A stretch of DNA of 64,000 nucleotides from Naasia sp. SYSU D00057 (lineage in GTDB: Bacteria; Actinomycetota; Actinomycetes; Actinomycetales; Microbacteriaceae). Position 1 is the stretch's first letter, and every line of letters starts with the position of its first letter. Positions 46,683 through 57,468 of the stretch are shown one piece after another. The translations under genes and the position numbers were made by a program. The notes beneath the pieces were generated by a model. The model saw only the letters and a list, made by a program, of their open reading frames with translations. It did not search any database and had not been told where the DNA came from. The DNA is taken from NCBI RefSeq assembly GCF_017916505.1, contig NZ_JAFMSZ010000001.1:682001-746000 (forward strand), written 5' to 3'.

Positions 46683-46696
46683 AGGACCCGGGTCCT
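46683..46696. promoter_or_regulatory. DevR-like palindrome upstream of kinase and CPBP genes
   Basis: AGGAC-CCGG-GTCCT matches the GGGAC-N4-GTCCC plan with the outermost base of each arm changed. It is 38 bases from the kinase start and 107 from the CPBP start. A second palindrome GGGACCGGTCCC (46707-46718) has only a 2-base centre. Confidence 0.45.
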
Positions 46697-46802
46697 GTTC
46701 CCGACCGGGACCGGTCCCCGCGCAGCCCACTCGGCACGTCAGGACCCGAAGGGGACCCGGGACTCAGGCGCGGGGACCCGGCGCGGCGGTGGACTTCCGG
46801 CC

Positions 46803-47669
46803 ATGACAGCACTCGCTCCCTCCCCGTCCCGCACCCGCCTCTCCACCCGCCGGCAGCTCGCCGTGTTCGGGATCACTCTCACTGCCCTCGTGCTGCCCGC
46901 GGTCGCGTACGCCGTCTCCCAGGGCGCCGACCTCGCGCACCTGGACCGGGCGCCCGTCGGCGCCCAGATCGCCCTGTTCTCGCAGTCCCTCGCCCCGGCT
47001 CTCGCCACCCTCGTGACGTGGGCGGTCGGCGGCGGCGCGCCCGTCTGGGGCTTCCGCCGAGTGCCGCTGCGCGTCGTCGGTACCGGCTGGCTGATCGCGA
47101 TCGCCGGCGTAGGACTCGGCTACGGGACGGCGTGGCTGACCGGCGCCGCGGCGTTCTCGGCGGAGGCCCTCTCCCAGACCATGGGCCTCCCCGCCCCCGT
47201 CGTCGCGCTCATCGGCCTTCTGCCGGGGCTTCTCCCATTCGTGCTGCTGGCGATCGGCGAGCAGCTCGGCTGGAGCTCCTTCCTGGTGCCGCGACTCGCG
47301 GCCGGCCGGTCCCGCGACGCGGTCGCCGTCCTGCTCGGCCTCGCCTGGGCGGCGTTTCACATCCCGATGATGCTGTTTCTCCCTGGTGGCATCGACGAGG
47401 GCGTCGCACCGCTCGCCGCAGTGGCGCTGTTCGCGGTGCAGTGCGTCGCGCTCGCCTTCCCCCTCGCCTGGCTGCGGCTGCGCACCGGCAGCATCTGGCC
47501 GGTGCTCGTGCTGCACGCGACACTCAACGCGGCGCTCTACCTCGTGGCCCAGCCCGCGACCGTGACCGGGCCGGGCGCGGCGGTCTGGCTCGGCGAGGGC
47601 GGCGTGCTCACCACCGCCGGCATCGTCGGAGGCGTACTCGTCACGATGCCGCTCTGGCGCCGGCGCTAG
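46803..47669 (+). CDS. CPBP-family membrane metalloprotease-like protein
   Basis: This 288-residue protein has about eight transmembrane helices and the three CPBP/Abi motifs in variant form: EQLGWSSFLVPRL (usual EExxWRGF), FHIPMM and HATLNAA. The motif 1 second Glu is Gln, so proteolytic activity is uncertain, though some active members vary here. Bacterial CPBP proteins take part in membrane-protein processing, bacteriocin immunity or stress. No clear Shine-Dalgarno sequence precedes the ATG. It is divergent from the sensor kinase and may be regulated by its system. It ends before a hairpin. Confidence 0.88.
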   Translation: MTALAPSPSRTRLSTRRQLAVFGITLTALVLPAVAYAVSQGADLAHLDRAPVGAQIALFSQSLAPALATLVTWAVGGGAPVWGFRRVPLRVVGTGWLIAIAGVGLGYGTAWLTGAAAFSAEALSQTMGLPAPVVALIGLLPGLLPFVLLAIGEQLGWSSFLVPRLAAGRSRDAVAVLLGLAWAAFHIPMMLFLPGGIDEGVAPLAAVALFAVQCVALAFPLAWLRLRTGSIWPVLVLHATLNAALYLVAQPATVTGPGAAVWLGEGGVLTTAGIVGGVLVTMPLWRRR

Positions 47670-47678
47670 GCGGGCATG

Positions 47679-54355: not shown

Positions 54356-54433
54356 TACCCTCGCCCCCGTCGAGGCGCACCGGCGCGCCGGAAAGGCTCG
54401 ACGTCGGCCGCGGAAACGGCGAGGCTTACGCAC

Positions 54434-56893
54434 ATGACGACCGCACCCGACGCCGTCACCCTCGACGACGACGTCCTCGCCCGCCTCGACGCCTGGTGGC
54501 GCACCGCGAACTACCTCTCCGTCGGGCAGATCTACCTCCTCGACAATCCGCTGCTGCGCCGCCCGCTGCGCCGGGAGGACGTGAAGCCGCGCCTCCTCGG
54601 CCACTGGGGCACGACGCCCGGACTCAACCTGCTGTACGCCCACCTCAACCGGGCGATCCAGGAGCGCGACCTCGACGCGATCTACGTGACCGGCCCCGGA
54701 CACGGCGGCCCGGGGATGGTGGCGAACGCCTACCTCGACGGCACCTACAGCGAGCTGTACCCGGACATCGCGCTGAGCGAGGACGGGGTGCGGCGGCTGT
54801 TCCGCCAGTTCTCGTTCCCGGGCGGCATCCCGAGCCACGCGGCGCCCGAGACGCCGGGCTCCATCCACGAGGGCGGCGAGCTCGGCTACGCCCTGTCCCA
54901 CGCCTACGGGGCCGTCTTCGACAATCCCGACCTGGTGGTCGCCGCGGTGGTGGGCGACGGGGAGGCCGAGACGGGTCCGCTCGCCACGAGCTGGCACTCC
55001 AACAAGTTCGTCGACCCGCGGAACGACGGGGTCGTGCTGCCGATCCTGCACCTCAACGGCTGGAAGATCGCGAATCCGACAGTGCTCGCCCGCATCCCGG
55101 AGGACGAGCTGCTCGACCTGATGCGCGGCTACGGGCACACGCCGCTGCTCGTCTCGGGCGGCTTCGACGGGGAGGACCCGGCGCACGTGCATCGGCGCCT
55201 CGCCGCGGCCCTCGACACGGCGCTCGACAGCATCGCCGACATCAAGCGCCGCGCCGCCGACGGCACGCTGGAGGGCCGCCCCTCCTGGCCGATGATCATC
55301 CTCCGCACTCCGAAGGGCTGGACCTGCCCGAAGGAGATCGACGGCCATCCGGCGGAGGGCAGCTGGCGGGCGCACCAGGTGCCGCTCGCCAGCGCCCGCG
55401 ACACCGAGGAGCACCTGCGGCTGCTCGAGGGCTGGCTGCGCTCCTACCGCCCGGAGGAGCTGTTCACCGAGGAGGGGGCGCCCGTCGAGCGGGCCACCGC
55501 GCTCGCGCCCTCGGGAGATCGGCGGATGAGCGCCAACCCGGTCGCGAACGGCGGCCTGCTGCGCCGCCCCCTCGTGCTGCCCGACTTCCGCGACTACGCG
55601 GTGGAGGTGCCCGCCCCCGGCGCCGCCGTGCACGAGCCCACCCGGGTGCTCGGCGAGTGGCTCGCCGACGTGGTCCGCGCGAACCCCCGCAACTTCCGCA
55701 TCTTCGGCCCCGACGAGACGGCGTCGAACCGGCTCGGCGCCGTGCTGGAGGCGACGAGCAAGCAGTGGAACGCCGAGTACGCCCCGGACGACGAGCACCT
55801 CGCCCGGTCGGGTCGGGTCATGGAGATGCTCAGCGAGCACCAGTGCCAGGGCTGGCTCGAGGGCTACCTGCTCACGGGCCGGCACGGGCTGTTCAACAGC
55901 TACGAGGCGTTCATCCACATCGTCGACTCGATGCTCAACCAGCACGCCAAGTGGCTGAAGGTGTCGCGGACGATCGCGTGGCGGCGGCCCATCGCGTCGC
56001 TCAACTACCTGCTCTCGTCCCACGTGTGGCGGCAGGACCACAACGGCTTCTCCCACCAGGACCCCGGCTTCATCGACCACGTCGTCAACAAGAGCGCCGA
56101 CATCGTGCGGGTCTACCTGCCGTTCGACGCGAACACGCTGCTCTCCGCGTACGACCACTGCCTGCGGTCGGTCGACTACGTGAACGTGGTGGTGGCGGGC
56201 AAGCAGCCGTCCTTCGACTGGCTGCCGATGCCCGACGCCATCGCGCACATGACGCGCGGCCTCGGCATCTTCGAGTGGGCGGGCACCGAGGTCGACGGGG
56301 AGGAGCCGGACGTCGTGCTCGCCTGCGCCGGGGACATCCCGACCCTGGAGGTGCTCGCCGCGGTCTCGATCCTCCGGCGCGAGATCCCGGACCTGCGGAT
56401 CCGGGTCGTGAACGTGGTCGACCTCATGCGGCTGCAGTCCGAGGGCGAGCACCCGCACGGGCTCAGCGACCGGGAGTACGACGCGGTGTTCGGGCGCGAC
56501 GTGCCCGTCGTGTTCGCGTACCACGGCTATCCGTGGCTCATCCACCGCCTCACCTACCGCCGCGCGAACAACACCCACCTGCACGTCCGCGGATACAAGG
56601 AGGCGGGCACCACGACGACGCCGTTCGACATGGTCATGCTGAACGACATGGACCGGTACCACCTGGTGATGGACGTGGTGGACCGCGTGCCGCAGCTCGC
56701 GGCCCGCTACGGCGCCCTCCGGCAGCGGATGCAGGACGCGCGCGTCGCCGCCCGTCTCCACACTCGGGAGCACGGGGAGGACATCCCCGAGGTCGCGGAC
56801 TGGACGTGGGACGGGACGACGGCGAGCCGGGACGCGAACGTCGGCGTCGGCCAGGTCTCCATCGCCTCCACCGGTGGGGACAACGAGCAGTGA
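54434..56893 (+). CDS. xfp: Xylulose-5-phosphate/fructose-6-phosphate phosphoketolase
   Basis: This 819-residue thiamine diphosphate enzyme splits xylulose-5-P or fructose-6-P with phosphate to acetyl phosphate and a shorter sugar phosphate. Motifs are [102 protein letters not shown] and the C-terminal [20 protein letters not shown] with [21 protein letters not shown] [20 protein letters not shown]. Length is normal. The acetyl phosphate formed could yield ATP through acetate kinase in low oxygen, which fits the neighbouring stress regulators, but that is inference. The next gene overlaps its stop by 4 bases. Confidence 0.96.
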
Positions 56894-57468
56894 GCGTCCC
56901 GCCGCCGCCCCCCGACACTCCCCGCCGGGAGGCGCCGCCGCGCCCGCCCCGGCCGCCGATGTCCGACCGGACGCCGCCGCCCATCCCCCGCGCCGCCCCA
57001 CTGCCCCGCACCATCCGCGTCGGGCAGGCGCTGTGGACCGCCAGCCTGCTCGCCGGGATCCTGGTGCTCGTGCTCGCGGTGCTGCGCCGCACCGACCAGT
57101 TCGAGCGGCTGCGGACCTTCGTCGGCGACCTTCAGGCCGACGCCGCCGACAGCACGATCGACACCGTCGCGACGGTCGCGTTCTGGACGGCCGTCGCCGT
57201 GCTCGGCGTCCTCACCCTGATCGAGCTGGCGCTGCGCGGTCGTGCCGAGCGCCGCGCGGGCGCACGCTGGGCACTGCTGCTCGTGCTGCTGCTCCATGCC
57301 GGGGCCGCCGTGCTCGGCGATCCCCTCGTCGCACTCGGCCCACTCGCGCCGCCGTCCCGCGCGCTGCTCGCGGTGCAGCTGGGCCTCGCGGCCGCGGCGC
57401 TCGTGCTCACGGCGATCGGGGCCCGCTCAGTCGCCCGTCAGCACCAGGCCGGGAGTCAGGGGCGCTGA
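56890..57468 (+). CDS. Membrane protein downstream of phosphoketolase
   Basis: This is a 192-residue protein. The first 45 residues are Pro-rich ([20 protein letters not shown]). Helices follow at [57 protein letters not shown] and [19 protein letters not shown]. No family is recognised. The GTG overlaps the xfp stop, so it is translationally coupled. Its last 42 bases overlap the convergent dynamin-like gene (57427-57468). Confidence 0.75.

Follow-up and report, generated by a model that had tools for sequence, protein, structure and literature searches.

Two-component systems of the DosS/DosR type have been described in actinobacteria that resemble the locus studied here. In Mycobacterium tuberculosis, the sensors DosS and DosT, built from GAF-A, GAF-B and kinase domains in that order, are paired with the regulator DosR, and PMC4082495 establishes His149 of DosS as the iron ligand by mutation and crystal structures. 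This system has GGGAC boxes and universal stress protein (usp) targets (see also PMC5069765). PMC5069765 describes OsdK-OsdR (SCO0203-SCO0204) of Streptomyces coelicolor, a DosS/DosR-type pair in which OsdR is a functional orthologue with usp targets and a closely similar consensus, AGGGCCGATCGGCCCT; since OsdR has been published, a DosR-type regulon outside mycobacteria is not a matter of inference alone. In Mycobacterium massiliense, a phosphoketolase gene adjoins those for DevR, a sensor kinase, usp and alcohol dehydrogenase; the available passages of PMC4263727 present this as a conserved gene locus only and give neither boxes nor regulation. Here we analysed a window of 64,000 nucleotides (contig C11, positions 682001-746000, of a 3.36 Mb genome in 21 contigs) from a bacterium that we place in the Microbacteriaceae as a Naasia-like organism. 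The window contains a DosS/DosR-type pair, four usp genes, a phosphoketolase gene and six boxes, the boxes lying within 5.6 kb (5,560 bp). We consider it probable, though well short of assured, that this module forms a two-component stress regulon of the DosSR/OsdKR type in one Naasia species, with a sensor that is no longer haem-based.

Similarly to DosS and DosT, the window sensor (50773..52467, + strand) carries GAF-A, GAF-B, HisKA_3 and HATPase domains in that order. In the alignment, counted from the FPPYHPPMRTF motif, His149 of DosS fell on Leu136 of the window sensor; unlike M. tuberculosis DosS, the window protein has no proximal haem-ligating histidine. According to PMC5069765, OsdK shares 15 of the 18 residues with which DosT senses oxygen, and 12 of the 18 in DevS, whereas the window sensor lacks the iron ligand itself. 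In an alignment of 110 rows, made up of the window and 109 further sequences, 105 held His at the ligand column and one was truncated; the four with another residue were the window (Leu), its sister species G004 (Gln), G029 (Leu) and G048 (Arg). This alignment, like the set of 100 dosS loci used below, holds two genomes twice (G006, also present as L110, and G024, also present as L170). A 90% conservation threshold, applied without L127, which is cut short in the haem region, gave 95 columns. The window departed from these seven times (Y73C, P104A, G108E, G111R, H136L, P137T and M139L), always in haem-pocket segments, and the remaining 88 columns were unchanged. The median row showed two departures and G004 ten, all within GAF-A residues 52-195. 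A tree of 106 rows, built without L042, L127 and the duplicates L110 and L170, required four ligand changes, all within the Microbacteriaceae, and well-supported branches make three of these unavoidable; the tree did not settle the branching order of the window, G004 and G006.

The phospho-accepting histidine column held His in 108 of the 110 rows, including the window, and a gap in two. In GAF-B and the kinase domains, the likeness between the window and its sister was on par with that of other pairs among the five proteins compared. The window's own genome contained no other DosS-like sensor, its four other matches (E up to 1e-6) spanning the kinase part only. Because the haem ligand and nearby conserved residues are lost, we infer that the haem has gone too and that this protein is unlikely to sense hypoxia as DosS does. 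This argues against the low-oxygen signal implied by the first-pass annotation, a note made from the window's sequence alone, as a haem switch in the style of DosS/DosT is unlikely in a sensor without the ligand. In PMC4082495, refolded DosS, presumed haem-free, and the bare kinase domain were both active, so that a kinase without haem might stay switched on or respond to another input.

The regulator gene (52464..53120, +) overlaps the kinase stop codon by 4 bp and encodes REC and GerE domains (PF00072 and PF00196). Its best match in the PDB was DevR (3c3w, E 3.2e-61), and its recognition helix, LAEKTVKNYVS, is identical in every letter to that of M. tuberculosis DevR, as the first-pass annotation had stated. 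The base-contacting residues in the KTVKN helix are presumably Lys179, Lys182 and Asn183. A DosR-type regulator was present in 78 of the 100 dosS loci scanned (20 stretches from relatives and 80 named loci), with KTVKN in 65, KTIKN in one and the pattern not fitted in 12. The similarity supports a DosR-type identity for the regulator and the view that the boxes are its kind of site.

The exact box GGGACGATGGTCCC (50731..50744) lies 28 bp upstream of the kinase start codon and 12 nt past a TANNNT hexamer. Two further boxes, GGGCCGAAGGTCCC (48821..48834) and GGGACCTAGGGCCC (48838..48851), form a tandem pair between divergent usp genes, and GGGACTTTCGGCCC (53375..53388) is found 61 bp upstream of a usp-phosphoketolase unit. 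These four of the six boxes are promoter-placed, in the three promoter regions to which the first-pass annotation had assigned them. The exact box GGGACCAAGGTCCC (47829..47842) stands directly past a usp stop codon and serves no obvious gene; the sister species has a box at the equivalent place (L052:12754). The last one, GGGACCAACGGCCC (53104..53117), falls inside the final codons of the regulator gene and may be a chance occurrence. All four one-mismatch boxes of the module share the same A-to-C/T-to-G change, which gives GGGMC-N4-GKCCC. The tandem pair recurs at its 17-bp spacing in L052 and L055 (sister G004 and G042), and at 16 bp in L071 (G017).

Counting window boxes with up to one mismatch was dropped as uninformative, as 8 were observed and 8.66 expected. 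The relaxed form GGGMC-N4-GKCCC, with no rule for its centre, was rarer genome-wide than its reversed control (61 against 105) and not enriched, so genome-wide claims were built on the exact form and on a WW-centred form, GGG(A/C)C-N-WW-N-G(G/T)CCC (GGGMCNWWNGKCCC, W being A or T). The published DosR consensus NNNGGGHCNWWNGNCCCBNN, as quoted in passages of PMC2947987, also has a WW centre. WW-centred boxes numbered 15 in the genome, against eight for the reversed control. Six of them lay inside the 5,560 bp of the module, where 0.025 were expected (Poisson P ~3e-13), and the remaining nine were all intergenic. The exact form GGGAC-N4-GTCCC occurred 13 times in the genome and was intergenic in ten, against an intergenic background of 11-13%. 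A permuted palindrome had 59 copies in the genome, and of the 15 copies examined one was intergenic; among 20 examined mixed-type sites, with one half GGGAC and the other GGGCC, five were. The reversed pattern was rejected as sole control and permuted palindromes were added, five of its six exact hits being intergenic copies of an unrelated palindrome. That palindrome, about 28 bp long and GAGTGCACCCTGGG..CCCAGGGTGCACTC-like, is scattered over intergenic sites of the window's own genome (L089 and L091-L094); the window itself has no match to its core at up to three mismatches.

In the 100 dosS loci, a loose form of the box had 138 copies in spacers and 30 in coding DNA, and eight reversed or permuted palindromes had 10-25 in spacers and 37-146 in coding DNA; the box was about eight times commoner in spacers than the matched palindromes. 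At least one intergenic box was present in 67 of the 100 loci. WW-centred boxes in relatives were intergenic in 104 cases and coding in eight, versus 34 and 22 for other boxes. Of 107 dosS genes, 22 had a WW-centred box no more than 300 bp upstream, whereas six control palindromes were present there in 1, 0, 0, 0, 0 and 0 cases; this count used gene starts set by BLAST and left out L110, L170 and L127. G042 had no WW-centred box upstream of dosS. The His-less relatives G004 and G029 have WW-centred boxes in the dosS neighbourhood, and the sole such box in the G048 stretch is more than 7 kb away. Gene calls came from an in-house codon model, for which twelve genes of the window served as training set, and some starts are mis-set; the dosS start of G004 was called too far upstream, so that its box scored as coding in the loose-box counts.

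Within 300 bp upstream, the loose box preceded 42 usp genes in 33 loci and 22 dosS genes, followed by genes for pyridoxamine-oxidase-like (PNPOx-like) proteins (10), regulators (9), cytochrome bd subunit I (8), CBS proteins (7), phosphoketolase (6, four of them with the WW form), zinc alcohol dehydrogenase (5), an unnamed cluster, flavodoxin and nitroreductase (4 each), acetate kinase and pyruvate formate-lyase (2 each), and then smaller clusters. Pfam gave a family for nine of ten cluster representatives and none for the unnamed cluster. The boxes recur before the same kinds of gene in relatives, in line with the DosR-type regulon proposed by the first-pass annotation. Phosphoketolase genes were present in 23 of the 100 loci and acetate kinase genes in ten. 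The boxes upstream of two acetate kinase genes and of pyruvate formate-lyase in relatives (L055:3532-4692, L128:4300-5427 and L176:12491-14791) suggest a fermentative arm of the regulon; the acetate kinase gene of the window's own genome has no box within 1.5 kb on each side.

TANNNT is a -10 hexamer of the actinobacterial type, and the site of a class II activator is centred near -42. Over offsets 0-59 in 182 aligned box-to-gene stretches, TANNNT peaked 22-24 nt past the box (14 of 34); all 14 hexamers of the peak followed WW-centred boxes, which accounted for 143 of the 182 stretches, and they were spread over 11 loci. This spacing in relatives is activator-like, as it would centre the box near -42. 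At a satellite site before a DUF6220 gene (L013), TACCGT was read by eye at offset 23. The 50731 box was rejected as an activator of the usp gene 49792-50667, with no TANNNT at the expected distance. It has a different position relative to the kinase gene. In the dosS promoters of four Naasia genomes (the window, G004, G006 and G007), the box ends 27-28 bp upstream of the start codon and a TANNNT ends exactly 12 nt upstream of the box; in the window this putative -10 of the kinase-regulator operon is TAGTCT (50713..50718, +). The same 12-nt gap was found in one Cryobacterium promoter and at none of 123 non-dosS boxes. This would put the dosS box near +7 of the transcript, where a repressor would bind, and self-repression of the kinase-regulator operon by DosR is the likeliest reading. 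The first-pass annotation did not include this repressor-like position.

Collectively, these data point to a mechanism in which phosphorylated DosR would bind the palindromic boxes. Bound immediately upstream of the promoter, it would activate the usp genes and the usp-phosphoketolase unit, as the geometry in relatives suggests; bound immediately downstream of the -10 of its own operon, it would hold back the kinase and regulator, as the position of the box suggests. The output would be stress proteins together with a phosphoketolase route to acetyl phosphate that needs no oxygen, the acetate kinase being encoded elsewhere. The sensor, with the architecture and phospho-accepting motif of DosS, has probably lost the sensing of O2, NO and CO and would now answer another input or be intrinsically active. 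More tentatively, DosS may have been re-tuned to a haem-less sensor three to four separate times in some Microbacteriaceae that retained the DosR regulon, with DosR of this species repressing its own operon and the new cue here being perhaps thiol/redox chemistry at Cys73 and Cys160, the only two cysteines of the sensor, or acetyl phosphate from the organism's own phosphoketolase; we offer this fuller scenario as possible and somewhat doubtful.

Several observations weigh against a haem-less sensor and would fit an ordinary haem-based hypoxia module, in which GAF-A holds haem through another residue and senses oxygen in the manner proposed for DosS, DosT and OsdK. The GAF-A fold is kept overall, with 43-44% identity to DosS GAF-A chains, and the distal tyrosine, Tyr171 of DosS, is conserved as Tyr158. 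Model confidence is low in the pocket segment (block means 54-72 over residues 101-140), and as far as the sequence tells another residue might still ligate the haem. The Naasia relative G007 retains the histidine beside a similar cluster with phosphoketolase and usp genes, so haem loss is not needed for such a cluster. The regulon and its boxes also agree with the hypoxia-linked regulons in the passages of PMC5069765. However, the sole residue shown as iron ligand (PMC4082495) is replaced by Leu in the window sensor and by Gln in its sister, and P104, G108, G111, P137, M139 and Y73 have changed with it while the other 88 columns conserved at 90% have not; we judge an intact oxygen sensor rather improbable. 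The loss of the GAF-A pocket signature would also fit a decaying sensor, with DosR charged mainly by another donor. Phosphoketolase yields acetyl phosphate, which could close a metabolic feed-forward loop from the regulon's own enzyme to its regulator, and the absence of a box within 1.5 kb on each side of the acetate kinase gene is consistent with such a loop. OsdR takes phosphate from acetyl phosphate in vitro according to the passages of PMC5069765. Against this, the window sensor keeps its phospho-accepting histidine, and the normal conservation of GAF-B and the kinase domains between the window and its sister does not look like that of a pseudogene. This second explanation is, in our view, unlikely without being far-fetched.

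The boxes themselves could be chance GC-rich palindromes or the sites of another regulator. The window count at the chance level and the rarity of the relaxed form against its reversed control are what this would predict. Further points weigh against the main reading: 33 of the 100 loci have no intergenic box, 85 of the 107 dosS genes have no WW-centred box in the 300 bp upstream, and the WW centre rule was adopted post hoc, after the -10 spacing data had been inspected. Clustering of the boxes, their intergenic placement, their recurrence at the same kinds of gene and the preferred -10 spacing all argue the other way, and we regard chance or a foreign regulator as very improbable. Two points limit the proposed signs of regulation. 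No TANNNT stands 22-24 nt past the usp boxes of the window itself, so that activation at these boxes is carried over from relatives, and the four Naasia dosS promoters come from related species and represent one lineage.

The other genes of the module agree with the first-pass annotation in most respects. The GAF kinase, the NarL-type regulator and the phosphoketolase it named are all present, with domains confirmed by Pfam. Of the four usp genes it described as tandem, all exist; those at 47854..48768 (-), 49792..50667 (-) and 53450..54355 (+) encode two Usp stretches, and the one at 48887..49780 (+) shows a single stretch. The first is divergent from the 48887 gene and the second from the kinase gene. 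The phosphoketolase (Xfp) gene (54434..56893, +; XFP_N, XFP and XFP_C) begins 78 bp past the usp gene at 53450, and the two are likely on one transcript. A second kinase/NarL-type regulator pair (44031-46645, -) adjoins the module and is preceded by none of the 15 WW-centred boxes. On the other side, two neighbouring genes at 57427-60749 (-) resemble dynamin-type GTPases by eye. A WW-centred box at 12104-12117 of the window lies 35 bp upstream of 10537-12069 (-), which by eye encodes an alpha/beta hydrolase-like protein.

Exact sites in relatives were intergenic in 8 of 17 examined for G004, 8 of 12 for G006, 2 of 6 for G042 and 1 of 1 for G007. The sites present numbered 19, 13, 6 and 1, respectively, and three dosS-cluster sites were left out, two from G004 (one within the phosphoketolase gene) and one from G006. 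Few satellite boxes are conserved across species, only two being found at the same place. One, a GGGACCAAGGTCCC box, lies 109-114 bp upstream of a gene for a protein of about 106 amino acids, with no Pfam family, at C11:598473 (L004), L213 (G004) and L222 (G006). The other is a palindrome, CGGGAC-N4-GTCCCG, in a glycosyltransferase/histidine kinase spacer (C17:88302, L012). It is kept in three Naasia genomes (L012, L207 and L201), and was rejected as a DosR site as its centre is not A/T; it probably belongs to another regulator. The L207 copy scores as coding, the gene caller having placed it within a long open frame. In L223, a box lies between a usp gene and a relative of the 52-amino-acid peptide of L004. 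Another box, at C11:632038 (L005), stands 52 bp upstream of a gene for a phosphoribosyltransferase-dienelactone-hydrolase fusion. A similar fusion gene, Rv0571c, is a member of the M. tuberculosis DosR regulon. Outside the cluster, the boxed genes of the window's genome share little with that regulon.

This kind of module is already known from the OsdR regulon of Streptomyces and from the phosphoketolase gene beside DevR in M. massiliense. The main text of the OsdKR paper (PMC5069765) does not use the word phosphoketolase, an enzyme encoded in the Naasia module, and Naasia dosS differs from the OsdKR system by a box in a repressor-like position. A literature search by title, with subscription papers largely outside it, returned no report of DosR-type phosphoketolase regulation and none of a haem-less DosS; the apparently haem-less sensor and the repressor-placed dosS box look new. 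Textbooks present the DosR regulon as a hypoxia response. A natural lineage that retains it without the haem ligand would put its tie to oxygen to the test and would separate the roles of the GAF-A haem and the kinase. Boxes are linked to phosphoketolase and, in relatives, also to the genes for acetate kinase, cytochrome bd and pyruvate formate-lyase, which suggests that the regulon of some actinobacteria governs ATP supply by fermentation as well as dormancy.

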